Source: Halobaculum magnesiiphilum (GTDB lineage Archaea > Halobacteriota > Halobacteria > Halobacteriales > Haloferacaceae). Taken from it: a DNA stretch of 64,000 nt. The DNA is taken from contig NZ_CP081960.1 of the NCBI RefSeq assembly GCF_019823105.1, forward strand, positions 372,001 through 436,000, given 5' to 3'. The notes beneath the pieces are model-generated. The model was not told the origin of the DNA and made no database searches. It was given only the letters and a program-made list of their open reading frames with translations. The position numbers and the translations under genes are program-made. Positions 10,869 to 58,057 of the stretch are shown piece by piece. The stretch's first letter is position 1, and each line of letters begins with the position of its first letter.

Positions 10869-11056
10869 GGTCACCAGAACGGAAGATGAGTATTTATACT
10901 CTGTCGTCGCCCATCGAATTCCGGGTGTATTCTCCCCCGGATCAACTCGAAGGCCTGGCTGAGCTGCTGAGTTACGGTGTGGGTGAGTTAGTCGCCGAAT
11001 TTTGGGATCGTGCGTCCGGTTCTGTGAAGTTTCCAGAATCAGACTTGTCTAGTACT

Positions 11057-16131: not shown

Positions 16132-16776
16132 GTGAAGCACCGGCAAAGGGTCGAACACTTCCGCACAGACCTGCTTAACTGGGCGGAGGACAACCTGCGG
16201 TCATTCCCTTGGCGGGACACGACCGACCCGTACGAGGTCCTGGTCGCAGAGATCCTTCTCCAGAAGACAGCTGCTGAGAAGGTGGCACCCATCTATATCG
16301 AACTTCTCGCAACCTATCCCTCACTAAACGATCTCGCGGAGGCGGACCGGGAGCGTCTGGGGGACATCATCTATTCGCTCGGATTCCAGAACCAGCGGAG
16401 TGACGCCCTGATCAAGATTGGCCAAGAACTTCGAGACTCCGGTGTACCCAGCGAGTTCCAGGACCTATTGGAGCTTCCATACGTCGGCCGGTACGCAGCG
16501 AACGCAACTCTGTGCTTCGCATATGACGAGCCTCAACCGATTGTCGACGCGAACGTGGTCCGAGTTTACAACCGAATCTTCGACAAAGATTTCGACTACC
16601 GTGATGAGGATACATGGTCATTCGCTGCCGCCGTCCTCCCAGCGGAGGATGCTCGCAGGTTCAATCTCGCGATTTTGGACTTCGCCGCCATGGTCTGCCA
16701 TCCGAAGGTCCCAGACTGCGACAAGTGCTTCTTCACCGATTCCTGCCACTACTACCAGGCGAACAAGACCGGTTAG
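16132..16776 (+). CDS. Mig-type G/T mismatch DNA glycosylase (HhH-GPD, 4Fe-4S)
   Basis: 214 residues starting at GTG. HhH-GPD fold: helix-hairpin-helix LLELPYVGRYAANATLCFAY with Tyr121 where endonuclease III has Lys and MutY has Ser, then IVDANVVRVYNRIF with catalytic Asp139. Tyr plus VDAN is the signature of Mig thymine-DNA glycosylase of Methanothermobacter, whose pair is Tyr126/Asp144. The iron-sulphur cluster is Cys189-x6-Cys196-x2-Cys199-x5-Cys205. No MutY C-terminal domain. It would remove T from G/T mispairs caused by deamination of 5-methylcytosine, fitting the cytosine-5 methyltransferase 0.5 kb downstream. Confidence 0.88.
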   Translation: MKHRQRVEHFRTDLLNWAEDNLRSFPWRDTTDPYEVLVAEILLQKTAAEKVAPIYIELLATYPSLNDLAEADRERLGDIIYSLGFQNQRSDALIKIGQELRDSGVPSEFQDLLELPYVGRYAANATLCFAYDEPQPIVDANVVRVYNRIFDKDFDYRDEDTWSFAAAVLPAEDARRFNLAILDFAAMVCHPKVPDCDKCFFTDSCHYYQANKTG

Positions 16777-17300: not shown

Positions 17301-18449
17301 ATGGATATTGCCGGCGTTGATTTGTTCTGCGGCGTCGGAGGGTTGACTCACGGGTTTGAGAGGGCTGGAATCCCTGTTGCTGCCGGAATTGACGTCGACC
17401 CCGACTGCCGGTATCCCTACGAGGAAAACAACGATGCAAAGTTCGTAGAGGCTGACGTCTCCGAGATGTCCAGCGAGGATGTTGCCGACCTGTTCCCGGA
17501 CGGCAGCTTCAAAATCCTCGCAGGCTGCGCGCCCTGCCAGCCGTTTTCGAACTACAACAATGGCGTGGATAGCTCGGAGATGGATGACTGGGCGTTACTC
17601 ACGGAATTCGGTCGCCTGGTACAGGATATCGAACCGGACATCGTGGCAATGGAGAACGTGCAGGAGATCCGCAATCACCGGGTGTACTCCGACTTCATAG
17701 ACACCCTGTTCAAAGCCGGATACGACATCTCCATCAACAAGGTGGACTGCGAGAAATACGGCGTCCCCCAATCCCGGCGGCGGCTCCTGGTGCTTGCCTC
17801 CAAGCACAGCGACATCAGCCTGATTGATCCGACGCATACCGGGTACAACGGCCACGTCACCGTTGAGGAGACGATCGGGAACGGCAAGCTGAATCCGATA
17901 GAAGCAGGCGAGGCCGATGACGAAGATCCGCTGCACCGGACGCAGACCTTATCCGAAATCAACCTGGAACGAATCCGGCAATCTACGCCCGGCGGGACAT
18001 GGCGGGACTGGGATGAGGAACTGATTCTGGACTGCCACAAGAAAGACAGCGGCAGTTCGTACGACAGCGTGTACGGCCGCATGGAATGGAAAGGCACCGC
18101 ACCCACCATCACCACGCAGTTCTACGGCTACGGTAGCGGCCGTTTCGGCCACCCGGAGCAGGACCGCGCGATCTCCCTCCGCGAGGGAGCAATGCTGCAG
18201 ACGTTTCCCAAAGACTATTCCTTCGTCGAGGAAGAAACAGACGAGATATCATTCAAGCAGATCGGGCGGTTCGTCGGCAACGCAGTACCCGTTCGGATTG
18301 CCGAAGTGGTCGGTGAAAGCATAAATCAACACCTCAACAATATCAATGTCACAGACAGAATCGAAACCCAAGACCGAGGAGGAAACGCCGTACGAGATGT
18401 CGCTCAGCCTCAACGTACTGAATCATCTGGGGCTGAACCTCTACAGTAA
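17301..18449 (+). CDS. DNA (cytosine-5) methyltransferase, DrmMII-like
   Basis: 382 residues with all conserved motifs in order: I GVDLFCGVGGLTHGF (residues 5-19), IV GCAPCQPFS with nucleophile Cys79, VI MENV (117-120), VIII QSRRR (157-161), a target-recognition region about 190-290, and X VGNAVPV near 330. It transfers a methyl group from S-adenosylmethionine to C5 of cytosine and should mark host DNA. DISARM class 2 uses such an enzyme (DrmMII), and drmA/B/C/E-like genes lie 12 kb downstream. The C-terminal 35 codons overlap the next gene by 104 bases, an unusually long overlap that ties the two genes together. Confidence 0.93.
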   Translation: MDIAGVDLFCGVGGLTHGFERAGIPVAAGIDVDPDCRYPYEENNDAKFVEADVSEMSSEDVADLFPDGSFKILAGCAPCQPFSNYNNGVDSSEMDDWALLTEFGRLVQDIEPDIVAMENVQEIRNHRVYSDFIDTLFKAGYDISINKVDCEKYGVPQSRRRLLVLASKHSDISLIDPTHTGYNGHVTVEETIGNGKLNPIEAGEADDEDPLHRTQTLSEINLERIRQSTPGGTWRDWDEELILDCHKKDSGSSYDSVYGRMEWKGTAPTITTQFYGYGSGRFGHPEQDRAISLREGAMLQTFPKDYSFVEEETDEISFKQIGRFVGNAVPVRIAEVVGESINQHLNNINVTDRIETQDRGGNAVRDVAQPQRTESSGAEPLQ

Positions 18450-20379
18450 CGTACCCGCCGTTCTCTCAGAGGCTGTTGCGAACGCATGGGACGCCGACGC
18501 CGAGAACGTTGACGTCTCGATCTATCCCGAGGAGGAACGCATCGAGATCGTTGACGACGGCCACGGCATGGACCTGTACGACGTGAACAATCGGTATCTC
18601 CGCGTCGGATACCGGCGGCGGGAGGACGAGGACCGGCCGAACCGAACACCGGAGCACAACCGGCCGGTTATGGGACGGAAGGGCATCGGGAAGCTCTCCC
18701 TGTTCTCCATCGCCGAGACCGTAGAGGTGTACACGACGAAGGACGGGGAGCAGCACGCCTTCCGGATGATTGTCGACGAGATCAAGGAGGCCATCGGGGA
18801 AGAAGAACCGGGGAACGATGCGATGCAGCCTCAGAGCTACGTGCCGACCCAGATCGATGACTTCCCCGACGACCACAATCAAGGGACCAAAATCGTTCTC
18901 AAGAACCTGAAGAAACGGGTTCACACAGCAGAAAGCGCCCTGCGGAAGCGTCTGGCCCGACGGTTCAGTATTCTCGGGTCGGAGTACGATTTCACCGTCC
19001 GGGTGAATGGCGAACCTATCGATATCACCGACCGCGACTACTTCCACAAAATCCAATTTCTCTGGACATTCGGTGATGACAGGTACGTCGACTACTGTCG
19101 CGACGCGAAGCTTGAGGAACACGAACACCGGTCCTCAACCACCGAGAGTGGGTACGAGGTGGAGGGTTGGATCGGGACGGTTGAGAAGCCGCGTGACCTC
19201 GTTGAGGATATCCCCGGCACTGGCTCGGAGACGGATGACCTGAACAAAATCTCGTTGATGGTCCGCGGGAAGATGGCGAAGGCCGATCTGATGGAGGATT
19301 TCAACGATAGCCGGATGGTCACGAAGTACCTCGTGGGCGAGATCCACGCCGACTTCCTGGACTACGACGACGAGGAGGACATCGCTACCTCGAACCGGGA
19401 GGACATGGTCAAGGACGATCCCCGGTACCAGGAACTGCTCGAATTCATCCGCGGCGAACTCAACCACATCGCGAACCGGTGGGGGCACCTCCGTAATGAG
19501 CAGGGTTCGGAAGAAGCGAGGCAGATCGGTGTAATCGATATGTGGTACGAAAGCCTGTCACCGGATAACCGGGAGCAGGCAAAGAAGCTGTTCGGGAAGA
19601 TCAACCAGATGGCGGTCAACGACGAGAACGATCGGAAGGAACTGTTCAAGTACGGCGTCCTCGCGTTTGAGAACCTGAAGTACAAGCAGAACCTGGAGCA
19701 ACTGGACTCCGCCTCGACCGAGGACGCCGGGAAGGTGGCCCGTATCTTGGAAGACCTGGAGGATATCGAATCCACCCGATTCCACCAGACCGTAACTCAG
19801 CGTCTTCGCGTGATCGAGAAACTGCAGCAGAAACTGGAGGACAACACCCTGGAGACAGTGCTGCAGGAACATATCGGCGAGCATCCGTGGCTATTGGATC
19901 CGTCGTGGGAACGTACCGCGGGCACCGATCTGATGGAGGACTGGGTTCGGATCGACTTCACCGAAGAAGAGGACGAGGCAGCCGGCCGGCTGGATTTGAA
20001 ACACATCCGCACCGCCGGGAAGCACGTCATTATCGACCTCAAGCGGCCAGACTACAAGCCTACCCAGTCCGAGCTCGAGGAGCACGCCGAACAGTACCGG
20101 GATACGATCAGTTCACTGCTCAGCAGGAGCGGCCGGGCGGACGAACCGGTGGAGGTCGTGTTCGTCGTCGGTACCCAGCCGGTAGACGAGGAAACCGAGG
20201 AACCGGTCCGTCACCCGAACAAATCGCTGGACGTGGACAACGCTCGGGTTCAGCTGTACGAGAACTTGCTCAAATCGTCCCGCGAGGCCTACGAGGAGTA
20301 CATTCAGAACCGGCCGGAGGCCGGCCGTGTGTCCCGGCTGCTTGACGAAATCGATGCAGGGGATACGCTGAACGACTGA
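18346..20379 (+). CDS. GHKL (MORC/MutL-like) ATPase fused to PD-(D/E)XK nuclease-like domain
   Basis: 677 residues. GHKL motifs: N-box SEAVANAWDADA (Glu42, Asn46, Asp49), G1 VDDGHGM (69-75), G2 MGRKGIGKLSLFS (109-121), followed by a transducer-like domain. Near residue 505 a nuclease-like domain begins with EHIGEHPWLLDPSWERT, then GRLDLKHI...KHVIIDLKRPDY, in which Asp and DxK have PD-(D/E)XK spacing as in Shedu/NucS-like enzymes. Prokaryotic MORC relatives in restriction loci are known; the ATPase probably clamps DNA and licenses cutting. It is translationally coupled to the methyltransferase by a 104-base overlap and converges on 20393. Confidence 0.85.
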   Translation: MSQTESKPKTEEETPYEMSLSLNVLNHLGLNLYSNVPAVLSEAVANAWDADAENVDVSIYPEEERIEIVDDGHGMDLYDVNNRYLRVGYRRREDEDRPNRTPEHNRPVMGRKGIGKLSLFSIAETVEVYTTKDGEQHAFRMIVDEIKEAIGEEEPGNDAMQPQSYVPTQIDDFPDDHNQGTKIVLKNLKKRVHTAESALRKRLARRFSILGSEYDFTVRVNGEPIDITDRDYFHKIQFLWTFGDDRYVDYCRDAKLEEHEHRSSTTESGYEVEGWIGTVEKPRDLVEDIPGTGSETDDLNKISLMVRGKMAKADLMEDFNDSRMVTKYLVGEIHADFLDYDDEEDIATSNREDMVKDDPRYQELLEFIRGELNHIANRWGHLRNEQGSEEARQIGVIDMWYESLSPDNREQAKKLFGKINQMAVNDENDRKELFKYGVLAFENLKYKQNLEQLDSASTEDAGKVARILEDLEDIESTRFHQTVTQRLRVIEKLQQKLEDNTLETVLQEHIGEHPWLLDPSWERTAGTDLMEDWVRIDFTEEEDEAAGRLDLKHIRTAGKHVIIDLKRPDYKPTQSELEEHAEQYRDTISSLLSRSGRADEPVEVVFVVGTQPVDEETEEPVRHPNKSLDVDNARVQLYENLLKSSREAYEEYIQNRPEAGRVSRLLDEIDAGDTLND

Positions 20380-20392
20380 AAAATCCCGAGTT

Positions 20393-20962
20393 TCACTCGG
20401 TGGCGTATCCGGGCCAGTCGGAATTGGTTTCGACCGTGAGCGAGCTCTCGCAGCACGGTGACTGGTACTCCTCGGGATTCTGCGTCCGGTCAGATGCCTT
20501 GTACAGCCCGTCGATCATCGCGCCACAATAGCTGCAATACAGCTGGTATCGATACGGGACGGGGTCTTCACCACGGATCGGTGCGTCCACCGATTCGGCG
20601 ACGTCCTGGAACTCGGGACCGTGCGCGGTCACGCCGTCCTCGTACTCTTCGTTGATGACGACATGGACGAGTTCGTGGCGGATGATGCCTTTCACCCGGT
20701 CCCATCCCCAGGACCGGTAACCGGGATAGGAGAGGACGATGGTGTGCTCCGGCGGGTCATCCAGTAGCGTTTCGCAGTACGCGCCTGCACGGCAAAGCTG
20801 GGGTGAGACCTTCCAGTCCACCCGGGCCAGCTCAACGTCGGCAATCGGACTGTTCTGATACGTTTCCTGGACTTCACAGGCGTAGCGTTCGGCTGTTTCC
20901 GCCAGTTCGGTACGGCTCAAGTTGTCGGAATCGTCCAGTACGACAGATTTTGTTATACTCAT
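20393..20962 (-). CDS. SprT-like zinc metalloprotease
   Basis: 189 residues. HELVH at 96-100 is the zinc-protease motif, with His114 as the probable third ligand (DGVTAHGPEF). A C-terminal zinc ribbon follows (Cys143, Cys146, Cys170, Cys171). SprT/Spartan proteins digest proteins crosslinked or trapped on DNA; in this locus it might remove stalled defence complexes, which is inference. AAAGGGG a few bases before the ATG is a good Shine-Dalgarno sequence. Last gene of the minus-strand operon, 45 bases behind its neighbour, whose expression it probably shares. Confidence 0.85.
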   Translation of the reverse strand: MSITKSVVLDDSDNLSRTELAETAERYACEVQETYQNSPIADVELARVDWKVSPQLCRAGAYCETLLDDPPEHTIVLSYPGYRSWGWDRVKGIIRHELVHVVINEEYEDGVTAHGPEFQDVAESVDAPIRGEDPVPYRYQLYCSYCGAMIDGLYKASDRTQNPEEYQSPCCESSLTVETNSDWPGYATE

Positions 20963-21007
20963 TATAATCCCCTTTCTAGTCGGTTTTCACCGGGGAATGG
21001 ACGCATT

Positions 21008-21718
21008 CTAGCTCAGATCGTCCTCGACTTCCGACAGGATGTCTTCGATGAGGGTGCGGATCTCGTCTTCGGACATCCCTTCGAGCTGGACCTTGCTCAG
21101 AGTTTCGCGGAACCGGAGCGTTGTCTGTTCGATGACGGTCGAACTGGCCTCCGCCTCCAGCAGCACCTCAGCGCACGCGACGGCCGCAGGCTTGTGCCGG
21201 GCGAACCACCGGTCGAAGATCTTGTTGGCCAGGGTCTGATTGGCGAGGACGTCCTCCGTAAGCGAGTAGTCCCGTTCCCCGTCACCGTCCATATCGTAGG
21301 TGAGTTCGGATATCCACCATAGCCGGTGCAGTGCGTTGGAGTAGATGTCCGTCCCGGCCTTGAGGAACTTTTCACGCATCGCTGTCTCGGTGGTGTACGG
21401 CCACCGGTACCGGACGAAATCGGGGAACTCGACGACGGTCAGGTAGTGCCAAACGCCGGGATCGCCTGCTTGCCGACGGGTGATGTCGACGAGTTGGTGG
21501 ACGTTAGGACCGGCAGCGCTGTCGATCATCGGGTCGTGCTCGTCGAAGTTGTTCATCACGTAATCAAGCACTCGGCGGAGTTCTTCCAGATCGCCGGTTG
21601 CGTTGACGGGTTCGATGTACGGTGAAAGGTCGTCGACCGTCAGGTCCTCGTCTCCGCGCAGGAATTCCTCGCTGATGTGGACGTGGCCGGACTGGTCGAG
21701 GCGTTTGAGTTGCGTCAT
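21008..21718 (-). CDS. Uncharacterised protein of GHKL operon (DUF6339-like?)
   Basis: 236 residues from the ATG at 21718, which overlaps the upstream stop (ATGA); longer in-frame starts run through the upstream gene and are rejected. Aromatic motifs RYRWPYTTETAMREKFLKAG and NALHRLWWISELTYD are distinctive and recall DUF6339, though I cannot confirm that. The C-terminus is a helical acidic tail (MSEDEIRTLIEDILSEVEDD). Found between a GHKL partner and a protease, so probably a structural subunit of the same complex. Confidence 0.75.
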   Translation of the reverse strand: MTQLKRLDQSGHVHISEEFLRGDEDLTVDDLSPYIEPVNATGDLEELRRVLDYVMNNFDEHDPMIDSAAGPNVHQLVDITRRQAGDPGVWHYLTVVEFPDFVRYRWPYTTETAMREKFLKAGTDIYSNALHRLWWISELTYDMDGDGERDYSLTEDVLANQTLANKIFDRWFARHKPAAVACAEVLLEAEASSTVIEQTTLRFRETLSKVQLEGMSEDEIRTLIEDILSEVEDDLS

Positions 21719-22725
21719 TTCAATCCCTCCTCGAGAAGGTTGATCAGTTGTTCTGGTGGTTCGGTCTTCTGTTGGACGGCGTCGTCGATGTGCTGCATCA
21801 GCGTCACCAGCTGATCCTCGTCGTTCACGTCCTCTCGCAGGTTCATCGCCGCCTCCTCTACGTCGGCGCCGTCGTACAGTTTGTCGTGGTACAGGTCGAG
21901 GACGTCGTCCTGCCAGTCGTACCGGGTTTCGCCGTCCTGGTTGATGTCGGTCGCTGTCCGGATGATCAGCTGCGGCCATACCGAGGCCTCTACTAGGTCG
22001 TAGATCGCGTCTCGCATCCGGGCGTCTGGCCCTGTCGACCCTCTGCTCTCCATCACGTTGATGATGGCGCTGTGGTCGCCGTTCAGGTAGAGCGTGGGTC
22101 GTTCGGCGTCGCTCATATCGAGGTAGTGCAGGTGGTCGCCGGACGGCAATTCGTTCATCTCGCTGAAGTTCTCGATGTGCGGCCGTAGCAGGCCATCCGG
22201 CAGGTCGGTGTCGTCGATCTCCAGCACCCACTCGTCGCCGCTGGCGAGACGAGCACCAATGTCGGTAGCGTACCGGCCGTCGACCTCACTCCGGTCGTCT
22301 GCCCGGACGAGATATGGCTGGAGTTCGACGCCTCCACGGATCATCGCGCGGTTCAGATCGAACTCGAAGGGGTACTCGTCGGGTGGGACAGAGTCCTCTT
22401 TGACGACCTCACGGTCGCGGAGGATGGTCTGCTGGCATCGGATAGCGACGAACAGGTTGCCGGGCGGGTCATCCTGCTCGTCGTCCGGGAAAACGTAGTT
22501 GACGAGGTCCTCGGAGACGTCGATGGTTCCCTTGACCGTCGCTTGGTCCCACTCGGTCAGGCTGGTAAGTTGGATCAAGCGGCTGCTCGACCGGATATCG
22601 ACCTCGCGGTCGTTGTCCAGCGTGCAGTCCGTTACCGTGAACTCCAACCCGGTTTCGCGGTACGGGTGCGGGAGGGCGGTTGTGCGAAGTCGCTGGGTCC
22701 GGGTTTCTATCTCTTCCGTCGACAT
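21715..22725 (-). CDS. Uncharacterised protein coupled to GHKL ATPase
   Basis: 336 residues; the ATG overlaps the stop of the GHKL gene and the stop overlaps the next ATG. The first 250 residues look beta-rich (ATVKGTIDVSEDLVNYVFP, then GGVELQPYLVR), the last 90 helical. The middle part YLDMSDAERPTLYLNGDHSA is a possible catalytic or binding loop but matches nothing I know. The overlaps on both sides imply fixed stoichiometry with the ATPase. Confidence 0.75.
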   Translation of the reverse strand: MSTEEIETRTQRLRTTALPHPYRETGLEFTVTDCTLDNDREVDIRSSSRLIQLTSLTEWDQATVKGTIDVSEDLVNYVFPDDEQDDPPGNLFVAIRCQQTILRDREVVKEDSVPPDEYPFEFDLNRAMIRGGVELQPYLVRADDRSEVDGRYATDIGARLASGDEWVLEIDDTDLPDGLLRPHIENFSEMNELPSGDHLHYLDMSDAERPTLYLNGDHSAIINVMESRGSTGPDARMRDAIYDLVEASVWPQLIIRTATDINQDGETRYDWQDDVLDLYHDKLYDGADVEEAAMNLREDVNDEDQLVTLMQHIDDAVQQKTEPPEQLINLLEEGLK

Positions 22726-24587
22726 CAGTCGTCACCTCCAAGCTGAACCGTGCCTTCAACCTCGAGCCGTGTCTCGCCCTCGCGAGGATCGGTTTCCGAG
22801 TATCCCTCGAACCGGATGCCGTCAACGGTTTCGTCGGCCTCCAGGCTGCCCTTTCCGTCCGAGGTGCCATGTGTGACGGACAGGTCGTCGGGTTGGATCG
22901 AGACCACGGGGATGAAGTCCTCGGTCGGACCGTCCTCGGCCATCCGGCGAAGCGAGACAGTGGCCGACCAGCTACGGTGGTCGTCAACCGTCGGCTCCAG
23001 GTAGCCGGAGAACTCCCACCGGTCGGTATCGTTGTCGAACCCGACGGTCGTGTCTCCGTCGATGACGCGTCCCATTGTCGGTGAGTCGCTGCGGCGACTG
23101 CTGCCGTGGCCGATGGGGAACCGTTTCGCGAGCCGTTTCGGTCCTAGCTTGCCGCGGCTTCTGCTCTGCTGTACCAGTTTCCGGAGGCTTTCGGTGACGT
23201 CGTCGTGCAGGCCGTCCACCGTTGTAGGCCCACCGAGCATGTACCCGTCTTTCAGGTTCTCGGTTGATGTCCACTTATCGTGCTCCGGCGGTTCCGCTGC
23301 CCTGAGGAACTTCTCGATATCCTCGTCGGCTTCGGTAGGTTCGCCATTACCCCATGCACGGGCACGGCCGCAGACGAGAGCAGCGTAGAAGTCCCGGTCA
23401 CCGAGTACAACCCGATCCCGGTCCCAGTACCGTACGACCATTCCAGCGCCGCGGAAGAACGCGACCTTGTTCACGAGTTCCTCGTCGTCGTCCGGGCCAG
23501 CCAATCGGACACTCAGGGATACCGAGCCATCCTCAGTGGGCCTGCCGTCGTACTCGTCCGGCATCTCCACCGGGACTTCCTTCTTTGCGACGTCACCGGG
23601 GTCGTCCAGGTCGTCGTCGGCATCGAACCGTTCGTCGACACATTTGACGAACGGGTGGACTGCGGGGACCTCGTCGATGTCGGCTTCGCGGACACCGTCA
23701 GGGGTTTCCACAGAGACCTCGAGATCGCCGAAGTGGATGGCCGGCCAGAAGTACTTGACCGAGGCTTCGATGATGTCGTCCGCGAGGTCGTCCACGCTCG
23801 GTTGTTCCTCGGCGGTCGGATCGCGGAATCCAACGACCGTAGCGCTGGTACCACTTGCGTCGGGCCGATCGATGTGGAGGGCCTCTGCCAGGTCCTCGGC
23901 CTCGCCGTTCCAGATGGACCGGGGAATTTCGTCGTCGTCGGAGTCGAAGTGGCCGAACCATCCGGGGCCTTGATAGATGGTATCTCCGTCTTCGGAGCGG
24001 TGAGTGGGCAGCCGGGTACGGCCGATCAGCCGCGGTGACTCGTACTCTTCCGGATCCTCGGCCAGTTGCGAGTTGAATATGACCGTGGAGACGCCGGAGA
24101 ACGCCCAGAGGACAGCCTTACCCAGGCCGTAGCTGCCTCCCGAGGTGCCGTCGTCCGGCTTGCTGCTGAAGAGGACGTCGCGGACGAGCGCCCGGAAATT
24201 AGAACTCTCGTCGTCGTCTGAGCCGATGAGACCGGTAGTGTTCCGGTCTTCCACGGTCAGCAGCAGTAGGTCGTCTTCCTCCTCGATACGGTTCAAATAC
24301 CGCCGATATCCGCCGCCCTTGTCCATATCAGCCACCGTTTCGAGGTGGCCGTGGAGTGTGTCCCAGTCGATGGCCTCCTTGAACTGATTCAGGTCGTCGC
24401 CGGAGAGAGGTGTAAGCCGGAAGGTGACCTCAACGGGACCGTCGTCTTCGGGTCCCTGGTCGTTCGCGTTCTGCAGGACCTCACGGGTGAAGATGCTTAT
24501 CTCCTTGTCCAACGCGTATTTCGTTGGGTCTCCACCCGACCATTCGCCGCGGCGGTTGGCTCTGGAGAACCCCCATCCGTTCGTCAT
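22725..24587 (-). CDS. Second GHKL (HSP90-like) ATPase
   Basis: 620 residues. GHKL motifs: N-box FTREVLQNANDQG (Glu36, Asn40, Asp43), G1-like LLTVEDRNTTGL (109-120) and G2 GTSGGSYGLGKAVLWAF (147-163). The rest is a long beta-rich C-terminal region with no nuclease motif that I can find, unlike the GHKL-nuclease fusion at 18346. The two ATPases are only distantly alike. Start and stop overlap both neighbours (ATGA). Probably the motor of the seven-gene operon, using ATP-driven dimer closure to sense or hold DNA. Confidence 0.85.
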   Translation of the reverse strand: MTNGWGFSRANRRGEWSGGDPTKYALDKEISIFTREVLQNANDQGPEDDGPVEVTFRLTPLSGDDLNQFKEAIDWDTLHGHLETVADMDKGGGYRRYLNRIEEEDDLLLLTVEDRNTTGLIGSDDDESSNFRALVRDVLFSSKPDDGTSGGSYGLGKAVLWAFSGVSTVIFNSQLAEDPEEYESPRLIGRTRLPTHRSEDGDTIYQGPGWFGHFDSDDDEIPRSIWNGEAEDLAEALHIDRPDASGTSATVVGFRDPTAEEQPSVDDLADDIIEASVKYFWPAIHFGDLEVSVETPDGVREADIDEVPAVHPFVKCVDERFDADDDLDDPGDVAKKEVPVEMPDEYDGRPTEDGSVSLSVRLAGPDDDEELVNKVAFFRGAGMVVRYWDRDRVVLGDRDFYAALVCGRARAWGNGEPTEADEDIEKFLRAAEPPEHDKWTSTENLKDGYMLGGPTTVDGLHDDVTESLRKLVQQSRSRGKLGPKRLAKRFPIGHGSSRRSDSPTMGRVIDGDTTVGFDNDTDRWEFSGYLEPTVDDHRSWSATVSLRRMAEDGPTEDFIPVVSIQPDDLSVTHGTSDGKGSLEADETVDGIRFEGYSETDPREGETRLEVEGTVQLGGDD

Positions 24588-25669
24588 TCGAAGGTCACCT
24601 CGGTGTCGTTGAGCAGGGATTCTCCTGTCTCAGTAAGATTGTAGGCGATACCACGCTGGCCGACTCGTTCGCGGTTGATTAACCCTAGTTCGTACATTCT
24701 GCTAACCAGTCCGGACCGCATCGTATCCGCTTGTGACTGACTCCATTCTTCGTTCAGTTCCGAGACATGTTCGCTGAGCGAGGTAGGACGGTTATTTCCT
24801 TCGCTGATGGCCTCGGCCGTCGTCACCATCGCCTCGTATTCGGCAGGAAGGTTGTCCCGAGTGTGGTCTATGTAGAACTCTCTCTCGTCCGGTGACAGTG
24901 ACTCGTCAGCGTCAGGCCCGTCATCCAGCAACGGGTTGTACAGCTCGGCGAATTCGAGTCCGGCCTCGGTAATCCCGATCCGGGACACGTCCTCGTCGCT
25001 GATATCGACAAAGAGCAGGTTCGGCGGTGCTCCGGTGAGCTTGTTATTCCGATCCGAGTATCCGATGAAGTGGGTCTCGAACCGGTCCTTGGACTTATCT
25101 GCGTCATCGCCGGTAGGCAGGCCTGACGCGATCTTTTCACCCCTGCCGCGCGACTTCTTCTGGTCGAACTCTTTGATCGTCAGCCCGTAATTGCGAGCGA
25201 GCTGCGCCGCGTCATCCTGGAAATGGTCCAGTTCGATCCATCGTAGGCCGTTCCCCGACGGGCTACTGTTCTCGTTCTGCTCCCGGACCATGTTCGCTAA
25301 GCGGCGGACTACGATCTTCGCAGGGAACACACGGTTGTACTGCCCCCATAGCGGCCCGTCTGCTAACCGGTCCTGGTCGGGAGGTGGCACGGTTGAGACA
25401 GCATCGTACTCTTGCCGGCCAAGACCGTCCGTAAGGAGGTCGTCCGGGTCTCCGTTTTCCTCCGGTTCCTCCGGTTCGGGCTCCGAATCGTCCAACTCCT
25501 TGATGGCTTCGTCAAGTGTCTTGAACTCGTCGTCCCCGTACTCCTCCAGTTCCAGCTGGTTTTCAATCGCCGTGTTCACAAACTCCTGGGCGTTTTCGTA
25601 TCCGCCGTTCTCGACAGTGTCCTTGATCTGGCTGACGAGGGGGTCTGGAACGTCGATCACGAGTTTCAC
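24584..25669 (-). CDS. Ribbon-helix-helix plus winged-helix DNA-binding protein
   Basis: 361 residues starting at GTG. The N-terminus MKLVIDVPDPLVSQIKDTV then YENAQEFVNTAIENQLELEE is a ribbon-helix-helix unit. An acidic linker (EPEPEEPEENGDPDD) leads to a middle domain, and the C-terminal 80 residues are a winged helix (MRSGLVSRMYELGLINRERV then GIAYNLTETGESLL). Two DNA-binding modules on one chain suggest a site-specific DNA recogniser or the regulator of the operon. It has its own TATA-like box, and its stop overlaps the GHKL start. Confidence 0.8.
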   Translation of the reverse strand: MKLVIDVPDPLVSQIKDTVENGGYENAQEFVNTAIENQLELEEYGDDEFKTLDEAIKELDDSEPEPEEPEENGDPDDLLTDGLGRQEYDAVSTVPPPDQDRLADGPLWGQYNRVFPAKIVVRRLANMVREQNENSSPSGNGLRWIELDHFQDDAAQLARNYGLTIKEFDQKKSRGRGEKIASGLPTGDDADKSKDRFETHFIGYSDRNNKLTGAPPNLLFVDISDEDVSRIGITEAGLEFAELYNPLLDDGPDADESLSPDEREFYIDHTRDNLPAEYEAMVTTAEAISEGNNRPTSLSEHVSELNEEWSQSQADTMRSGLVSRMYELGLINRERVGQRGIAYNLTETGESLLNDTEVTFE

Positions 25670-25827
25670 ACGTACTTCCTCGGACCCCTCTTCTTAGCCG
25701 GGGTTCATAAGCGTATCGGGAGTACGTGGCCACTCTGGCACAAACTCCTCCTGAAGAATGTGGTGTCCGAGGGGAGATTTGTGGGAGTATGTAGAGAGGG
25801 GAAAAGTTGGAGGGATTGTGCTGCCGG
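25670..25827 (-). promoter_or_regulatory. Internal promoter region of GHKL operon
   Basis: 158 bases separate the EVE-like gene from the RHH gene, the only real gap in the operon. On the minus strand ACGCTTATGAACC lies about 40 bases before the GTG at 25669 and could be a TATA element, allowing the last five genes to be expressed separately from the first two. Confidence 0.4.
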
Positions 25828-26253
25828 CTATGGATTCTGTAGAAGACTAGTCTCATCAGCGGCCCGGAGGATGGCGGTGAAATCGTCACGGCTGATCTCG
25901 TAAATACTGTTCTGCGGGACGCCGCGAAGTCCATCACGGTCCCGTAAGAACGAAATCTTGTCCTTGATCTCTCGTACCTGCACAGGCGGATCGAACGCGA
26001 CGTACGTGTCGATGTGTGCATTATAGCCGGTCAGATTCCCGCCGTCCTGACCGCCGGCGAGGTCATTGGTTTCTATGTCGCCGATGACGACGGCCCCGAA
26101 TAGGACGTACTCACCCGGCCAGTAGTACACGAACCAGTCGTCTGCGGACAGTTTCCTGTGCCCGGGGACGTTGCTCCGATAGTTGTAGACCTCGCCTATC
26201 ACGTCGCTATATCCCTGCGAATCCTTATGCTGGTTCAGCCCAAAATACGCCAT
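25828..26253 (-). CDS. EVE/PUA-like domain protein, predicted modified-base reader
   Basis: 141 residues. VYNYRSNVPGHRKLSADDWFVYYW then GEYVLFGAVVIGDIE is the pattern of EVE/PUA-like modules in McrB-type and HNH restriction proteins (a Y-x-YP-like strand, a strand ending in YY, then F-G-hydrophobic-I). Such domains bind flipped modified bases such as 5-methylcytosine. It begins four bases behind the methyltransferase-like gene, so the two form a unit. The assignment is by pattern, not by search. Confidence 0.6.
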   Translation of the reverse strand: MAYFGLNQHKDSQGYSDVIGEVYNYRSNVPGHRKLSADDWFVYYWPGEYVLFGAVVIGDIETNDLAGGQDGGNLTGYNAHIDTYVAFDPPVQVREIKDKISFLRDRDGLRGVPQNSIYEISRDDFTAILRAADETSLLQNP

Positions 26254-26256
26254 CGG

Positions 26257-27210
26257 TCAGTCGTCGTCCTCGGATTCCTCCTTGTTCTCGGAATCTGCCT
26301 CGCCGTCCGCGAACGAGTCAAGCGTACGGTCCATCTGCGGATCACCGTCCACGTACTTGTATATGGATTCGTTGTCCTCTGCACGGCGTCTGCTCTCCAT
26401 CCGTTCATCGTAATTGGAGTAGTCCGGTCGATCCACTGTTTCGCCGTTCGCGGCCTCGTACACTCTGAGCCAGTCACGGCAGATGTGGTGGATGTACGGC
26501 GCCGGGATGGAGTTCTTCGCCAGGTGCTCTTTGGGGTATCGGCGTTCGCGGTATCCTTTCACGGAACCCCACCAGCGGCGGGATCGCTCGGAGAAGAAAT
26601 ACGGTGAGGTCTCTACTTTGGTACCGCCGTGGCTGAACCGCTTTTGTCGTGGCGGCTGGGTTACGGGGAACGATGTCTCGAACGCCCGTTCATAGTCGAT
26701 TGGGAGGCCGAACATCTTCCCGTCAAGGTAGACTGGGTCTTTCAACGGCGCGTTTGGTTTGTTCTCGATGACGTAGTGGTCACAGTACTGCTGGGCGATT
26801 TCACGGGCTTGCGGGATCTGATTTGGGTGGTCGTCGGGGTTGCCCGAGAGGCTCGTCAGTTCCGCCCATCGTTTGCAGATCGGGTGGAATACGCCGAGGT
26901 TGAACGTTACGTCGTCAGCAATCGGGACGTCGTAGGCATCTGCTTTGATCGGGATGCTCTCGTTGGTGTCCATTGCGTCGATACCGACACGAACGACATT
27001 TCCGTAGCAGGCCAAGGCTTCGCTTTCGACGCCGTAGTCGGCGAAGCAGTGGAGGATAAGCGGTTCCTCCCTGTCTTCTCCGTATTCAGGTGTCACGGAA
27101 TCACCTCGCACAGATACTGTGGACTTCGGTTGTTTCTGGACGGGTGGAATATGTCTACCGTCGCTAAGAAGAGTATGTCGAAGGTTCGACGGGAAAGAGA
27201 CGTTCACCAC
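26257..27210 (-). CDS. Diverged cytosine-5 methyltransferase-like protein
   Basis: 317 residues starting at GTG. LILHCFADYGVESEALACYG (residues 51-70) corresponds to motif I, NVVRVGIDAMD to motif II, VFHPICKRWAEL with Cys112 to motif IV and DHYVIENKP with Glu149 to motif VI. The overall order matches phage-type C5 methylases, but the PCQ triad reads PIC-K and the SAM loop lacks the usual GxGG. It may be a slow or inactive methylase or may act on another base. First gene of the operon with a TATA-like CTTTATT about 25 bases upstream. Confidence 0.6.
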   Translation of the reverse strand: MVNVSFPSNLRHTLLSDGRHIPPVQKQPKSTVSVRGDSVTPEYGEDREEPLILHCFADYGVESEALACYGNVVRVGIDAMDTNESIPIKADAYDVPIADDVTFNLGVFHPICKRWAELTSLSGNPDDHPNQIPQAREIAQQYCDHYVIENKPNAPLKDPVYLDGKMFGLPIDYERAFETSFPVTQPPRQKRFSHGGTKVETSPYFFSERSRRWWGSVKGYRERRYPKEHLAKNSIPAPYIHHICRDWLRVYEAANGETVDRPDYSNYDERMESRRRAEDNESIYKYVDGDPQMDRTLDSFADGEADSENKEESEDDD

Positions 27211-27391: not shown

Positions 27392-29752
27392 ATGATTGGG
27401 TTGGAGCCGGTGGTCACCGGCCTGATTGCTAACGCGCTGTACGACGAGCTCACTGGGAGAGCCGAAGAGAACAAACGCAAAGTCGTCCGACGTCCAGAGG
27501 TTGTGGAAGATATCGGTTCAGCATATCTTCAGACCCTGAAGACGAACCTTGAGAGCACCATCGGGGAAGGTGCTGACGTAGATCTCCAGGCGGTACATCG
27601 AGAACTTGACGAGGACTACGACGACGTCTACGAACAGCTCGTGATGGCATCGAATGAGGAAAAAATCCGCGAAGCCCTTGTGGATGCCATTCTGAAGTCC
27701 GTCTCACCCGGAGGAAAGGAGTATCAGTTGGACCGCTCCGCTATTGAAGACGCCGTGGAATACTCGTTGGATACCGGTTTCCGAGCATTCGTCCAAAGCA
27801 TTGATCAAGCAGGGCTGACAGAGGAGGTCGAGTTAGAACTTGATGTGGAGATTCTGAAGCGCGTAACTAAGATTTCACGAGGGGTTGAGGCGACAGAGCG
27901 GCGACACCAGAACGAACACTTCACCATTCAAGAAGAGCCTGACACGGTGACAGAGGCAGATAGCGCTACACTGATTGGAGTCCCAGAGCCGTCCGCCGAA
28001 TTTGTCCAGCTTCCCTCATTGGTGGACGTAGAATATGAGACGAGTCGGATTGTTGTCGGGAAGAAAGGTGCGGGCAAGTCACGGACACTCGCGTATTTGA
28101 TTAGCGAAGTCTGCGAGCGGGCCGCAGTGGACTATTTGGTAAACTTAGAGGACTCGTTCAGAGTTGACGACATTGAGGACATCTTAATCAAAGGGCTTGA
28201 TGGCACCGTGTTATTGGTTTGTGACGACGTACATCGTCTTGAAGGACCGAGAAACATCCATCCATTTCGTCGACTTGTTAAGCGTCTCCAAACGGAGATG
28301 CAAAGCGATAGCCGTCTTATTGCCCTGTGTGGAGTACGTTCAAAGAGAGTTGACTCGTTACCTCACATAAAGCGGTTAAATGACGATCCAGTATGGGGTG
28401 AGTTCGAGAAAACTCGTCTCAAGTCGCTTGATCCAGAGTCTGTCAAAGCAATTCTACAATCTACTCTGGAGGCGTTGGATAGAGATTCCTCACCGTCCAC
28501 TATTGAGGCTCTGACCCGGGCGGTACTGGCGATTGATCCGACTCCTTTGTACACTGTCACCATCGCTCAACAGTTCGGCTCCGGTAGTGTAGACGCGGAG
28601 ACGGATTTTGAAGAACTCCTGCCAAAGGATATCAGCACAGCATGGAAAGACGACTATCAGGTCCTCTTTGAAGAGTCTCCAAAGATGGTAAGTCTTCTTC
28701 GAACCCTCAAAGTCTTCGACCGTCTCTATCTGCCAACTATCGAGGATCTTGTTAGAGAAGTCTTCCGGGGTGCATTCGACGCGTCCTTCATTGAATTCGA
28801 AAGAGCACTATCGATGTTGATCCAGAGACACTGGGTCGAATATCGTGAATTAGAATATTCCGATGGCATAAAAAAGCGACTCGTCACGCATCAAGCCCAA
28901 TTAGAGAGTATTCCGAGGGTTCCGAAATCTGTGATTGTCAACCTGACCGACCATCTGCATGGGTGGGAACCGACCAGTCTTGATATAGAAGACGAGGGAA
29001 TGGCTCGAATCCACACTCGTGCATTCAAGTACAGCCGTCTACACCCGGAAATCGACCACTCTGAGTTGGAGAAGCACGTTGAGGAAGCAATTAAACTGGC
29101 GCCCGATGATCCAGCTGTACAGACTTGTGCTGCTGTCTTCTATGCAGAAATCGGGCGAAGAGATCGTGCGTTAGAATGGGTCACAAAAGCGGCAGACGCG
29201 AAACCGGACCACCCAGTGTTAAATTATAACTGCGGAAATTTTCTAAACAAGATCTGCGAACCCAAGCGCGCAGAGCAGTATTTACAAAGAGCTGTTAATG
29301 AAGAACCAGAAAATCCAGTATTTTTACATTCACTTGGAGCAGCGCTTGTAGGAAGCGGCAGAGTTGAGGAAGGACTTGAACGCTTACAGCACGCACGGGA
29401 TCAAGGATCGTTTACTTTTGGTGAGATTTTCTTCTCGATCGGCGATGCTCACAATATCCTCGGAAATTATGATCGGTCCGTGGAAAATTCATGTGAGTCT
29501 ATCGATATCTTCGAAGAAACTCAACAGTGGATCAATTTGTCCAATGCGTATAGCCTCCTCGCGATTGCACACTTTAACCATGAAGCATACGAAGACTGCG
29601 TAGATGCCACTGAGAAGGGTTACGAATTGACGGAACGGATCCTTGATGGTGAACTCTCGGACACTCCTATTCGAAACGACGAGACACTAGATCCAGAACA
29701 GATACAACGAGAGCTCGTAATCCTGCAGTCCAGAGCGCTTGTCCAGATGTAG
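27392..29752 (+). CDS. STAND-type NTPase with TPR-like C-terminus (Avs-like)
   Basis: 786 residues. A helical N-terminal domain (MIGLEPVVTGLIANALYDEL) is followed by a P-loop VVGKKGAGKSRT near 220-230, a Walker B VLLVCDDVH near 274-281 and a winged-helix-like region. From about residue 560 a TPR-like solenoid begins: repeats such as HPEIDHSELEKHVEEAIKLA, AVFYAEIGRRDRALEWVTKA, NYNCGNFLNKICEPKRAEQY and FFSIGDAHNILGNYDRSVEN. This is the plan of antiviral STAND NTPases, which recognise phage proteins by the solenoid and trigger an N-terminal effector. The effector domain here is short and not identified. The gene has lower GC than its neighbours. Confidence 0.8.
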   Translation: MIGLEPVVTGLIANALYDELTGRAEENKRKVVRRPEVVEDIGSAYLQTLKTNLESTIGEGADVDLQAVHRELDEDYDDVYEQLVMASNEEKIREALVDAILKSVSPGGKEYQLDRSAIEDAVEYSLDTGFRAFVQSIDQAGLTEEVELELDVEILKRVTKISRGVEATERRHQNEHFTIQEEPDTVTEADSATLIGVPEPSAEFVQLPSLVDVEYETSRIVVGKKGAGKSRTLAYLISEVCERAAVDYLVNLEDSFRVDDIEDILIKGLDGTVLLVCDDVHRLEGPRNIHPFRRLVKRLQTEMQSDSRLIALCGVRSKRVDSLPHIKRLNDDPVWGEFEKTRLKSLDPESVKAILQSTLEALDRDSSPSTIEALTRAVLAIDPTPLYTVTIAQQFGSGSVDAETDFEELLPKDISTAWKDDYQVLFEESPKMVSLLRTLKVFDRLYLPTIEDLVREVFRGAFDASFIEFERALSMLIQRHWVEYRELEYSDGIKKRLVTHQAQLESIPRVPKSVIVNLTDHLHGWEPTSLDIEDEGMARIHTRAFKYSRLHPEIDHSELEKHVEEAIKLAPDDPAVQTCAAVFYAEIGRRDRALEWVTKAADAKPDHPVLNYNCGNFLNKICEPKRAEQYLQRAVNEEPENPVFLHSLGAALVGSGRVEEGLERLQHARDQGSFTFGEIFFSIGDAHNILGNYDRSVENSCESIDIFEETQQWINLSNAYSLLAIAHFNHEAYEDCVDATEKGYELTERILDGELSDTPIRNDETLDPEQIQRELVILQSRALVQM

Positions 29753-29774: not shown

Positions 29775-30749
29775 TCATACGGGGACAGCACGCCGGAACA
29801 TGGCGTCGAAAACCTTCACGACGTCTTCTACCGCGGGTCCTTCCATGAGGACGCCCAGCTCGAAGTTCGAGGTAAGCGCGGTCTGGATGAGGTTAGCGGA
29901 GCCGAGGTAGCATCGACTCCCGTCGACGATCACGGCCTTGGCGTGGATCGCTTCTTCCTGGCCGCCGGGACCCTTCTCGTACAGGTCACGGACCTCAAAC
30001 AGGTCTCGTGCCGAGGCGGACATGTTCTCACGTAGCCGGTCGATAGCGGCCCGTGTATCAGGGTCTCCGTGTGCCGGTCGTACTTCCCGCGTCAGGACAC
30101 GGGTCTCGACGCCTCGTTCGGGCAGTGCGACGATGGCCTCGAATACCCGTTCGTCAGGGTCGAAGTATGGAGCGGCGATACGGGCGATATCGTCCGCACG
30201 GTTCAGCAGTGTCTGGAGTTGCAGGTCGGTCCGATCAACGGCTTGGCGAGCGACCGGATCAGCGTCTGGAGGGAGCGTCGCGACCAGCGACGATTCGGTA
30301 GGCTCCGGCTGCCGGGCTGCGTCGACGGCCTTGTTCGTGGCTGCGGCTATCCACTGGTCGAAGTAGGACTGTGCGAGGTGGAGGTCGACGGCGAACGTGT
30401 AGCGGGCATAGCTGCTTGCTCCGGTATCGTATTCGACAGCGGCGTCGCCATCGATCAGCGATGTTACCAATGTCGTGAACTCCTGGGCGGAGAGCAGGCG
30501 GTCAGCCGATGTGTGCTGCTCCAAGCGTTCGTTTAATCCGGATAAGTCGATTTCGACCACCGTCGGGTCGCTGCTTCCGTCGTCCGGCGACGATGAGGGC
30601 GGGAGTTGGGTGCCATCGTCCCCGTAAGTTGCGAGTGCGTCCCTGATATGGCCGAGCCGTTCGGGAGATTCGATGATGCGGACGGGTGTCCAGTCAGAGA
30701 CGAGGGGAGTCCCATCAGAGAGTTCGTGCGGCGGATCTGCACCTGTCAT
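29775..30749 (-). CDS. drmC: DrmC: phospholipase D-family protein of DISARM
   Basis: 324 residues with one HKD motif near residue 268: HAKAVIVDGSRCYLGSANL, the PLD nuclease/phosphodiesterase signature. A single HKD means it must dimerise for a full active site. In DISARM the PLD protein is dispensable in some tests but conserved. It starts 20 bases behind drmB. The N-terminal 150 residues are helical with the acidic bias of haloarchaea. It converges with the STAND gene (22 bases between stops). Confidence 0.88.
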   Translation of the reverse strand: MTGADPPHELSDGTPLVSDWTPVRIIESPERLGHIRDALATYGDDGTQLPPSSSPDDGSSDPTVVEIDLSGLNERLEQHTSADRLLSAQEFTTLVTSLIDGDAAVEYDTGASSYARYTFAVDLHLAQSYFDQWIAAATNKAVDAARQPEPTESSLVATLPPDADPVARQAVDRTDLQLQTLLNRADDIARIAAPYFDPDERVFEAIVALPERGVETRVLTREVRPAHGDPDTRAAIDRLRENMSASARDLFEVRDLYEKGPGGQEEAIHAKAVIVDGSRCYLGSANLIQTALTSNFELGVLMEGPAVEDVVKVFDAMFRRAVPV

Positions 30750-30769: not shown

Positions 30770-32758
30770 TTAGTCTGCCGTGTTGCCTGCCTCGGCCTCC
30801 TGGATCGCTTGTTCGACCGCGTTCGACCGTTGCGGCACGTTGTCGTCGATTTCGTCGTCGTAGAACCCGACGGTGTCGCGGGAGCCGGTGAGAAGACGCC
30901 GATCCAGGTGGCGGTTCATCGCTTCACAGCTGGTGAGGTTGACGTGGATACAGGCGTCGCAGGCAGCACTCTCGGGGTCCTCGCGGCATGCAGGGTCAAG
31001 GATGCACTGTTCCGCGACGCTTCGTGCATCGCCGAGCCACGGGTGGAGCCGGGTCTTGAACAGGGTGAACATGGCGCCGAGGGAGAAGCTCTCGGTGGAC
31101 GCCGCGTAGATGACGGTGGCTGGCACGACCGGGAGGATTCGCTCGCTCAGGCTTCCGACCGAGAGGCCGCACTGTTCGGGTGCTGCGTCCATCAGCGTGT
31201 GGCTGATGGTGTGGAGCAATCGGTAGATGTCGCTGGTTATCGGGTCCTCGATGCTCGTGAACCCGGTTTCGAGGTCGGTGGTCTCGATGTGATTGATGAA
31301 CCACCTCTTTAGCTCTACCTCGCTGTCGGTGTCGGGTGCCTCTTCCTCGGTGATCCGGTCGTTGGCGAGAAGCCAGTTGATGATCGCTGCCCGGTCGATC
31401 TCGAAGATGATGGCCTCGCTCGGGGTCCGGTCGCCGAACAGGGGGATGGTCGGCTTCTTGAACGGGTGGTCGAACGCGTGGAGATCCGTGTCCCGTGGAC
31501 GGGGTGAAGCTCGTGTACGGCCGTAGAGGATGTTCAGAAGTGGGAACTGGTCGACGACCCACGCGTTCCGGAAGTGGCTGTCTGCCAGCTGGTCGTGGTA
31601 CCGCTTCGCTTGTGGATGCCGGTCGATGAATCCGGGGTTGGTCAGATAGTCGTCCAACGAGTCGGGAACCGGGTGACGGCTGTCTTGCCGGTCGTCTTCA
31701 TCGCCCTCGTAGCCTTCTGTGGACCGGATGAACGTGAACAGTTGCTGGGCGACGTTCGCCCATGCGAGGTTCGTCTCGCTGCCTTCCGGCTGGGCCTGGT
31801 CGCTGTCGACGTCCGGCGGAACGATGTCGTCGGTAACCTCGGCAGCGTATCCACGGCCGCGGAACGGGACGCCCAGTTCTTTGAGGCGGTCGCGGAGTTC
31901 CTCGCGGTTGTCACCGCCGAAGTCGTCCAGGAGTCCTTGGACCATATCCATCTGCCCCTCGTTCGTGGCCAAGCTTTCGAGGGTGTGGTCCTCGTCGGTG
32001 TCCATCAGTCCGAGGTGGACTGCCGCGAGGGTTCGTGCCCAGGGTTCCCCGCCGGGGACGTCTTCGGGATCTTCGTCGAGGAACGGGATGTCGACCATGA
32101 CGACTGTCTGGGCGTACTGCACCCGGTTGGAACTGGCCGGGAGTGGGCCGTCCATCGGGTCGCCGCAGACCTCGCAGATGGTCGAGAATCCGCCCATCCG
32201 TTCACCGCACTTGCGGCACCGGTAGTACCAGGTGCCCGGGCCGCCGCTTGTGCGGACCAGCCGGTAGTCGTCGAGGCCGTGCGAAGGGCATCGGTCCTGC
32301 CAGTCCGGTTCTGGCCCTTCGATATGGCCGCAGGTGTGGACGTTTACGAAGGTGAGCTGGGTGAGGTCGGTTCCGCAGGCGTAGCAGTTCCCATCGGACG
32401 TAAGATGGTCCGGGCTGTTGGCGGTGTGGACCTTTCGGCACTCGGGGTCCTCGCAGTAGAACACCAGGGGGAAGAGTTCGGTGGTGACGCCGTGGGGCTT
32501 GAACACGTTGAGGGCGCTGGCCTGGAGGCGTTCCCATTTCCCGCTGGTTGTCCGGTTGCGGAAGCGGGATACTCGGCCTTTCAGGATGGTGGCCACGCGG
32601 TCCATGTCGATGTTCTCGAGCTCTTCCGGGTTGTCGAAGGAATCGACCTGGGTGGTGACGCCGACCTGGCCGAAGTTCACGACCTCGCCGGGAGTGTAGT
32701 TGTGCAGGACCTGCGAGAGGCCTCGCGGGAGTTCGTAGTCGTTGTCGCCGGCACTCAT
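30770..32758 (-). CDS. drmB: DrmB: DUF1998 zinc protein of DISARM
   Basis: 662 residues. Cysteine-rich N-terminal third: CEDPECRKVH, CYACG, HTCGH, CPSHG, YRCRKCG and ICEVCGDPM make several zinc knuckles. The C-terminal DUF1998 region has the conserved cluster CREDPESAACDACIHV and a nearby AMNRHLDRRLL. In DISARM, DrmB forms a complex with the DrmA helicase that loads on DNA and is triggered by free 5' single-stranded ends. It lies between drmA (91 bases upstream) and drmC. Confidence 0.9.
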   Translation of the reverse strand: MSAGDNDYELPRGLSQVLHNYTPGEVVNFGQVGVTTQVDSFDNPEELENIDMDRVATILKGRVSRFRNRTTSGKWERLQASALNVFKPHGVTTELFPLVFYCEDPECRKVHTANSPDHLTSDGNCYACGTDLTQLTFVNVHTCGHIEGPEPDWQDRCPSHGLDDYRLVRTSGGPGTWYYRCRKCGERMGGFSTICEVCGDPMDGPLPASSNRVQYAQTVVMVDIPFLDEDPEDVPGGEPWARTLAAVHLGLMDTDEDHTLESLATNEGQMDMVQGLLDDFGGDNREELRDRLKELGVPFRGRGYAAEVTDDIVPPDVDSDQAQPEGSETNLAWANVAQQLFTFIRSTEGYEGDEDDRQDSRHPVPDSLDDYLTNPGFIDRHPQAKRYHDQLADSHFRNAWVVDQFPLLNILYGRTRASPRPRDTDLHAFDHPFKKPTIPLFGDRTPSEAIIFEIDRAAIINWLLANDRITEEEAPDTDSEVELKRWFINHIETTDLETGFTSIEDPITSDIYRLLHTISHTLMDAAPEQCGLSVGSLSERILPVVPATVIYAASTESFSLGAMFTLFKTRLHPWLGDARSVAEQCILDPACREDPESAACDACIHVNLTSCEAMNRHLDRRLLTGSRDTVGFYDDEIDDNVPQRSNAVEQAIQEAEAGNTAD

Positions 32759-39523: not shown

Positions 39524-39583
39524 TGTTCGGACCGGCTCCACAGTTCCGGTTGGTTGTGGTGCTACCGTAGTAAATTGACAGCG

Positions 39584-39745
39584 GACATTAAAAATGCTAG
39601 CCTCGGGTAAATGAGCGAATTGAACGTGTTCGGCCCGGGGCCATCCGGTCGTGGTGGAACGTGGACGGTATCGGTCTGGGCCGATTGACACGTATCGGCC
39701 CCCCAACAGCGACGGCGGTTGAGCGAACCGTTATTTACCAACGGT
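39584..39745. promoter_or_regulatory. Bidirectional promoter of drmE block and endonuclease gene
   Basis: On the minus strand TTTTTAATG at about 39586-39594 is a TATA box for the DISARM block. On the plus strand GTTATTTACC lies about 25 bases before ATG 39760 and is bracketed by the perfect inverted repeat ACCGTT (39727-39732) / AACGGT (39740-39745), a likely operator over the TATA box. Confidence 0.5.
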
Positions 39746-50365: not shown

Positions 50366-50414
50366 TACAGGTGACGGAAGGAACACTCCTGTTTTGTGTC
50401 GGTGTCGAAGACAT

Positions 50415-50531
50415 ATTTAGAGTCTATGTATTCTGAGCGGCTGTGAAGACGACTTTCATCAAAATGACTCTCAACGACCACCTTTATCCCGAGGGAGATT
50501 TAGACTCTATGTACGCTGAGCGGCTATGAAG
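50415..50531 (+). repeat. Tandem duplication of AbiE promoter and start region
   Basis: 34 bases at 50415-50448 recur at 50498-50531 with four mismatches, 83 bases apart. Each copy contains ATTTAGA-x-TCTATGTA, then CTGAGCGGCT and a start codon followed by GAAG (GTG in the first, ATG in the second). The second copy supplies the start of abiEi. Confidence 0.75.
50443..50529 (+). CDS. Putative 28-residue leader ORF before abiEi
   Basis: It begins with the duplicated start codon (GTG) and ends with a TGA overlapping the ATG of abiEi (ATGA). The reading frame MKTTFIKMTLNDHLYPEGDL is in frame to that stop without interruption. Coupled translation could tune AbiE expression; alternatively it is just a by-product of the duplication. 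Confidence 0.35.
   Translation: MKTTFIKMTLNDHLYPEGDLDSMYAERL

Positions 50532-55701: not shown

Positions 55702-58057
<2,356 letters not shown>

Follow-up and report, generated by a model that had tools for sequence, protein, structure and literature searches.

A GHKL ATPase triad in haloarchaea, its C5-methyltransferase partners and its linkage to DISARM

In a 64,000-nucleotide stretch of the haloarchaeon Halobaculum magnesiiphilum (contig NZ_CP081960.1, positions 372,001 to 436,000; hereafter the window), seven minus-strand genes at positions 20393-27210 form an operon, which we letter in transcription order from A (26257-27210) to G (20393-20962). Our analysis identifies the three consecutive genes D-E-F as the PADLOC candidate PDC-M33, because D matches the component M33A, F matches M33C and the family of E appears, by profile comparison, to be of the M33B type. 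We see roughly an even chance that D-E-F represents a mobile restriction-type antiviral module: a methylation-licensed, nuclease-less ATPase clamp, which would act on unmarked DNA either alone or with the help of neighbouring restriction machinery. What is new here is the DISARM-linked haloarchaeal setting of this PDC-M33/paraMORC2 module with its pattern of paired methyltransferases, which we did not find described in the literature searched. An earlier note on this DNA had proposed the operon as an undescribed system; the region is indeed of the defence type and falls under no named system that has been characterised, but D-E-F is catalogued as PDC-M33 and D fits the description of paraMORC2.

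The D-E-F core

D (22725-24587) is a GHKL ATPase without a Pfam match, which is matched by the PADLOC model PDC-M33A (PDLC04582, 1.1e-30). Its ATPase motifs are intact: the N-box residues E, N and D are present in all 107 aligned homologues, the G2 glycines in 105-108 of 108, and Arg379 is invariant in the homologue alignment. An ExxxH motif, formed by E432 and H436, is likewise kept in all 108 homologues. In the 2008 description (PMC2292703), this motif defines paraMORC2, a family of GHKL proteins encoded in restriction-modification neighbourhoods. Since ExxxH is universal among the homologues and the GHKL ATP-binding motifs are intact, D can be classed as paraMORC2-like. The GHKL assignment made in the earlier note is thus upheld by both the motifs and the PDC-M33A match.

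The other two proteins of the triad had been regarded as unknown. F (21008-21718) is in fact a DUF6339 protein (PF19866, 4e-22) and matches PDC-M33C (PDLC04586, 1.7e-20). For E (21715-22725) of the window there is no direct PADLOC match; the protein that lies between D and F in Arthrobacter is PDC-M33B (6e-30), the E family aligns with this PDC-M33B-type family in hhalign (prob 90, E 1.6e-6), and the position between D and F is conserved. Structure prediction, as suggested earlier for both proteins, gave confident AlphaFold models, a beta-sandwich plus a helical part for E (pLDDT 92) and an all-helical protein for F (pLDDT 97), but no fold match that could be used for function. The PDB matches of E (UNC119, RhoGDI, RbmA and adhesin repeats) are generic beta-sandwiches with Z values of about 8, those of F are short helical stretches with Z values of at most 6.4, and together they barely covered E's helical half or the greater part of F; neither set was used to assign a function. 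Searches of solved structures for A, D, E, F and a GIY-YIG-like protein described below returned nothing useful.

No nuclease was recognised in E or F among Pfam, NCBIfam, PADLOC, PDB sequence or fold matches, and none in D by sequence match, with fold matches covering E and F only. A nuclease of novel fold may still be present. The statement that the operon lacks a nuclease motif holds for D-E-F as far as recognisable nucleases go, but the DISARM and C5-methyltransferase (C5-MTase) locus around it includes nuclease-bearing neighbours.

A genome scan with the D alignment returned 297 relatives. The best 73 loci come from haloarchaea, from Streptomyces and further actinobacteria, from myxobacteria, Chloroflexota and planctomycetes and from other groups, and D is found on plasmids of Synechococcus, Deinococcus, Arthrobacter and Lactococcus. 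The order D, then E, then F is fixed in haloarchaea, actinobacteria, myxobacteria, cyanobacteria and firmicutes; in one divergent group E falls into a separate cluster, which hhalign ties to the E family. The three proteins have co-evolved, with distance matrices that correlate at r 0.97-0.99 (Mantel p 0.001; r 0.98-0.99 for E with D). D occurs in 22 of 292 haloarchaeal genomes, usually in 2-4 clustered copies, and in 24 of 111 Streptomyces genomes, a patchy distribution in keeping with a mobile restriction-type defence. Relatives of D in viral contigs numbered only 5, all of them distant, and F was not found in phages.

Methyltransferase partners and a possible mechanism

D-E-F is closely linked to C5-MTases. 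In 21 of the 22 haloarchaeal genomes with D, a C5-MTase of family PF00145 is encoded no more than 10 kb from D, the exception lying on a small contig, and 29 of the 37 C5-MTases that these genomes possess are found within this distance (chance expectation about 0.4). The window carries a drmMII-like C5-MTase (DCM; 17301-18449, plus strand; PADLOC DrmMII 7e-102), a canonical writer in which PCQ and ENV are present.

Gene A is the strict haloarchaeal partner of D: it occurs in 16 of the 22 genomes with D, at a distance of 0.2-2.9 kb from a D, and at full strength in none of the 270 without it (p 8e-22). Its product is homologous to pleolipovirus open reading frames (HRPV9, 40%, 1e-36; His2) and to mycobacteriophage MTases. 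The catalytic cysteine C112 and the ENV residues E149-N150 are invariant in 13 homologues; the S-adenosylmethionine (SAM) motif is altered, with FADYG replacing FCGxGG, and there is no match to PF00145 or any other Pfam family. Comparison with a C5-MTase profile in hhalign gave a weak score with the motifs in register, and it was the phage homologues that settled the assignment of A as a divergent, virus-type C5-MTase homologue. The region thus does hold a possible mark writer or mimic together with an ATPase, as had been noted before.

Counting A and PF00145 members together, there are exactly two C5-MTase-like genes per haloarchaeal D locus in 19 of 22 cases, three in two cases and one on a single truncated contig, and all six loci that lack A carry two DCMs (Fisher p 4e-4). 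Such a fixed pair fits what might be expected of an asymmetric recognition site whose two strands are each served by their own enzyme, or of a writer combined with a reader. The phylogeny of D tracks the methyltransferase partner, since a D1 clade lies beside DCM and a D2 clade downstream of A; the D of the window branches as the sister of D2 (93/84). One genome (L096-L097, G274:C1:2503000-2532000) harbours four D-E-F triads, two DCMs, A, a glycosylase and a C gene within about 23 kb. Between A and a second D-E-F triad, a 520-amino-acid protein is encoded at L004:12336-13862 and in 11 other haloarchaeal loci; it is absent from the window operon, has no Pfam match and is GIY-YIG-like by motif reading only (GLY...YVG, R, E, N).

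A pair of methyltransferases also adjoins F in Streptomyces (loci L044-L081), where one member has the catalytic cysteine and the other carries a Cys-to-Arg replacement (25 of 25). The latter homologue keeps the SAM motif and ENV (for example L080:15022-16077), and its orthologue is present in 23 of 24 Streptomyces genomes with D versus 2 of 87 without (p 2e-20), mostly 3.2 kb from D. No similarity was detectable between A and this Cys-to-Arg protein. It is possible, if doubtful, that D-E-F works with a canonical C5-MTase as writer and a non-canonical homologue, no longer a normal writer, as the site-recognition (specificity) subunit of a GHKL-based restriction machine that has no nuclease, a part that would be played by the virus-derived A in haloarchaea and by the Cys-to-Arg pseudo-methyltransferase in Streptomyces. 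If true, a methyltransferase that is conserved although it lacks the catalytic cysteine, and that is linked genetically to an ATPase of defence, would constitute a new way of reading DNA marks.

MIG/MutY-like HhH-GPD glycosylases and Vsr are known answers to deaminated 5-methylcytosine (5mC). A gene for such a glycosylase neighbours DCM in the majority of haloarchaeal D loci, and does so in the window too (16132-16776, plus strand; 1.7e-73 with a hidden Markov model from five Pfam HhH-GPD relatives), and Vsr adjoins bacterial D-E-F copies. The recurrence of these genes is a sign that methylation at D loci is real. The window glycosylase is probably a repair enzyme for 5mC deamination and a haloarchaeal counterpart of Vsr. 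The same neighbours, along with the GHKL kinship to MutL and the SprT protease in the window operon, could however indicate that D-E-F and the second methyltransferase maintain the methylated state and serve not in defence but in repair resembling mismatch or Vsr repair, or as a safeguard in case of 5mC deamination or methyltransferase-DNA crosslinks. We consider this quite unlikely, as D-E-F is patchy, multi-copy, plasmid-borne and located inside defence islands, while SprT is not conserved with it and myxobacterial copies occur without a methyltransferase.

As a restriction-type defence module, D-E-F might function as follows. D, as a paraMORC2-like GHKL ATPase, would probably be powered by ATP to close on DNA, as a clamp or as a looping engine, with E and F as its constant subunits; DNA looping by paraMORC proteins is proposed in the 2008 paper (PMC2292703). 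The canonical C5-MTase of the locus would mark host DNA by C5 cytosine methylation, and the second, often non-canonical homologue, A in the window, would most likely recognise or mark either the identical site or one paired with it. DNA free of the mark would let the clamp engage, and D-E-F would then either block the unmarked DNA or pass it on, in the window to DISARM and elsewhere to Vsr, restriction endonuclease (REase) and Z1 proteins or to GIY-YIG-like proteins. We infer the antiviral effect, DNA binding, clamp action, self/non-self recognition by 5mC and the role of A from family membership and genomic context.

Several points weigh against this scheme. Linkage is not proof of joint function, and D-E-F may merely share islands with restriction-modification genes. 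Close relatives inflate the locus counts, in Streptomyces most of all. With its altered SAM motif, A may not methylate. Most myxobacterial D-E-F loci, finally, have no methyltransferase within the flank examined, so that methylation would not always be needed or would be encoded elsewhere.

DISARM and the remaining genes of the operon

The window operon sits between drmC and the drmMII-like gene and is thereby flanked by a DISARM class 2 set. On the minus strand, drmC (29775-30749, PADLOC 4e-44) is accompanied by drmB (30770-32758, 9.5e-130), drmA (32850-36815, E 0) and drmE (36902-39706, 6.5e-91); none of the seven operon genes has a Drm match in PADLOC. Full-length drmA of the window's type is present in 10 of the 22 haloarchaeal genomes with D, always within 10 kb of it, versus 6 of the 270 without D (p 4e-9), and genes of the DrmA/DrmB type lie near many Streptomyces copies of the triad. 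This proximity could mean that D-E-F is an embedded accessory, which extends or regulates DISARM, for instance by DNA remodelling for DrmAB, and has no activity of its own. Such a role appears unlikely to us, since a full-length drmA is missing from the vicinity of D in 12 of the 22 haloarchaeal genomes, and plasmid and myxobacterial copies adjoin Dcm, Vsr and REase genes or stand alone.

Neither drmE-A-B-C next door nor the C5-MTase, GHKL-nuclease and mismatch-glycosylase-like genes on the other side had been mentioned in the earlier note. DCM overlaps a GHKL ATPase gene with a PD-(D/E)xK-like C-terminus (18346-20379, plus strand; REase_II 9.6e-89; LDLK-x12-DLK in its sequence) at the place where relatives hold a D1-E1-F1 triad, and the pair of DCM and PD-(D/E)xK-tailed GHKL recurs inside other D-E-F loci. 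This GHKL gene is the probable restriction partner of the overlapping drmMII-like C5-MTase.

The seven open reading frames themselves are present exactly where they had been placed, and overlaps or gaps of less than five bases at four of the six junctions were confirmed (A-B +3, B-C +158, C-D -4, D-E -1, E-F -4 and F-G +45 bp). A plasmid of Haloplanus sp. GX21 carries the identical seven genes in identical order, and comparison with this copy indicates purifying selection on all seven (dN/dS 0.07-0.14). At 68-94% protein identity the GX21 copy is the same locus and no independent case. Synonymous divergence between the two is 1.3-1.8 in the A-B-C half and 0.35-0.6 in the E-F-G half, as expected of a mosaic. 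On the GX21 plasmid (L002:11456-15982), frameshifts break A, C and D and leave E, F and G intact, by decay or sequencing error.

The tight operon and its selected GX21 counterpart speak for the earlier proposal that the seven genes together make up a single dedicated system of writer or mimic, reader, DNA binder, clamp and protease. We nevertheless regard this as very improbable, because B, C and G do not accompany D-E-F across the 292 haloarchaeal genomes and GX21 adds no independence: whereas A is linked to D in 16 of its 16 genomes, C is so in only 3 of 8, the two other genomes with B lack D, and the G family occurs in 176 of the 292. A and D-E-F make up the conserved haloarchaeal unit, with B, C and G added to it locally.

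Of the domain calls made for these additions, only that of G has a profile match above threshold. B (25828-26253) has an EVE-like match of 0.019, below the Pfam cut-off; it is found in 3 haloarchaeal genomes, in the other two beside a glycosylase and a C5-MTase. C (24584-25669) has an equally sub-threshold ribbon-helix-helix/winged-helix assignment with weak ParD and PaaX matches. G has a SprT domain (PF10263, 1.7e-9) with the HExxH motif HELVH, and relatives of it in the 176 genomes reach at most 39% identity, with the only close one in GX21. We infer that B would act as a reader-like, C probably as a regulator-like and G as a DNA-protein-crosslink-protease-like local accessory, with G looking like a passenger. 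In one genome (L090, G000:C2:8000-26000), a second copy of the C gene precedes a PbeA-like helicase gene, as part of a conserved cluster that L091 and L093 share.

Further genes of the window include an AAA/TPR protein between drmC and the operon (27392-29752, plus strand), which has a lower GC content of about 0.50 and is absent from the GX21 locus, and a GmrSD/DUF262-type protein (8955-10874, minus strand; PADLOC HEC-05-like, 5.6e-66). A PD-(D/E)xK protein overlaps a UvrD helicase-nuclease in an AddAB-like pair (43166-48632, plus strand), an ADP-ribosylglycohydrolase is followed by an AbiEi-type antitoxin (49460-51359, plus strand), and an IS605 OrfB/TnpB-like gene is located at 56406-57680 on the minus strand.

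Comparison with known systems

Although drmE, drmA, drmB, drmC and the drmMII-like methyltransferase of DISARM class 2 flank the operon, none of its seven genes is a DISARM component and D-E-F is also found without DISARM. MZA, which comprises a MutL-like ATPase, a Z1 helicase and partners, shares with D-E-F a GHKL ATPase in a C5-MTase/Vsr context, and Z1 (MzaC-type) proteins adjoin Streptomyces copies of the triad; the window proteins scanned with PADLOC gave no Mza match, and D does not match the Mza models. HATPase proteins are not mentioned in the ARMADA/YprA paper. The GHKL-type Shedu protein VcSduA (PMC12137116) provides a case of a GHKL ATPase in antiviral defence, and its layout resembles that of the neighbour at 18346-20379. 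VcSduA, however, is one protein with a fused PD-(D/E)xK nuclease, whereas D-E-F has no recognisable nuclease.

The closest counterparts are PDC-M33 and paraMORC2. PDC-M33, with its components M33A, M33B and M33C, appears to consist of the same three genes in the same order as D-E-F; its PADLOC entry is a bare candidate, our literature search on DUF6339 or PDC-M33 found no text, and the methyltransferase pairing, the duplicated haloarchaeal triads, the partner A and the DISARM link were in no text found. This unnamed candidate now has concrete predictions for its subunits, partners and dispensable genes. With paraMORC2, as presented in the sections considered of Iyer, Abhiman and Aravind (2008, PMC2292703), D shares intact GHKL motifs, an ExxxH after the ATPase part and a sporadic distribution, and D-E-F shares neighbourhoods of Dcm, Vsr, REase and helicase genes; these sections do not include the partners E and F, the DISARM linkage or the partner methyltransferases of haloarchaea and Streptomyces. 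They do propose that GHKL ATPases power DNA looping in restriction systems and gave rise to the MORC chromatin proteins of eukaryotes. With three proteins, no recognisable nuclease and a defined methyltransferase partner, a module of this kind would offer a minimal setting in which this proposal could be tested.

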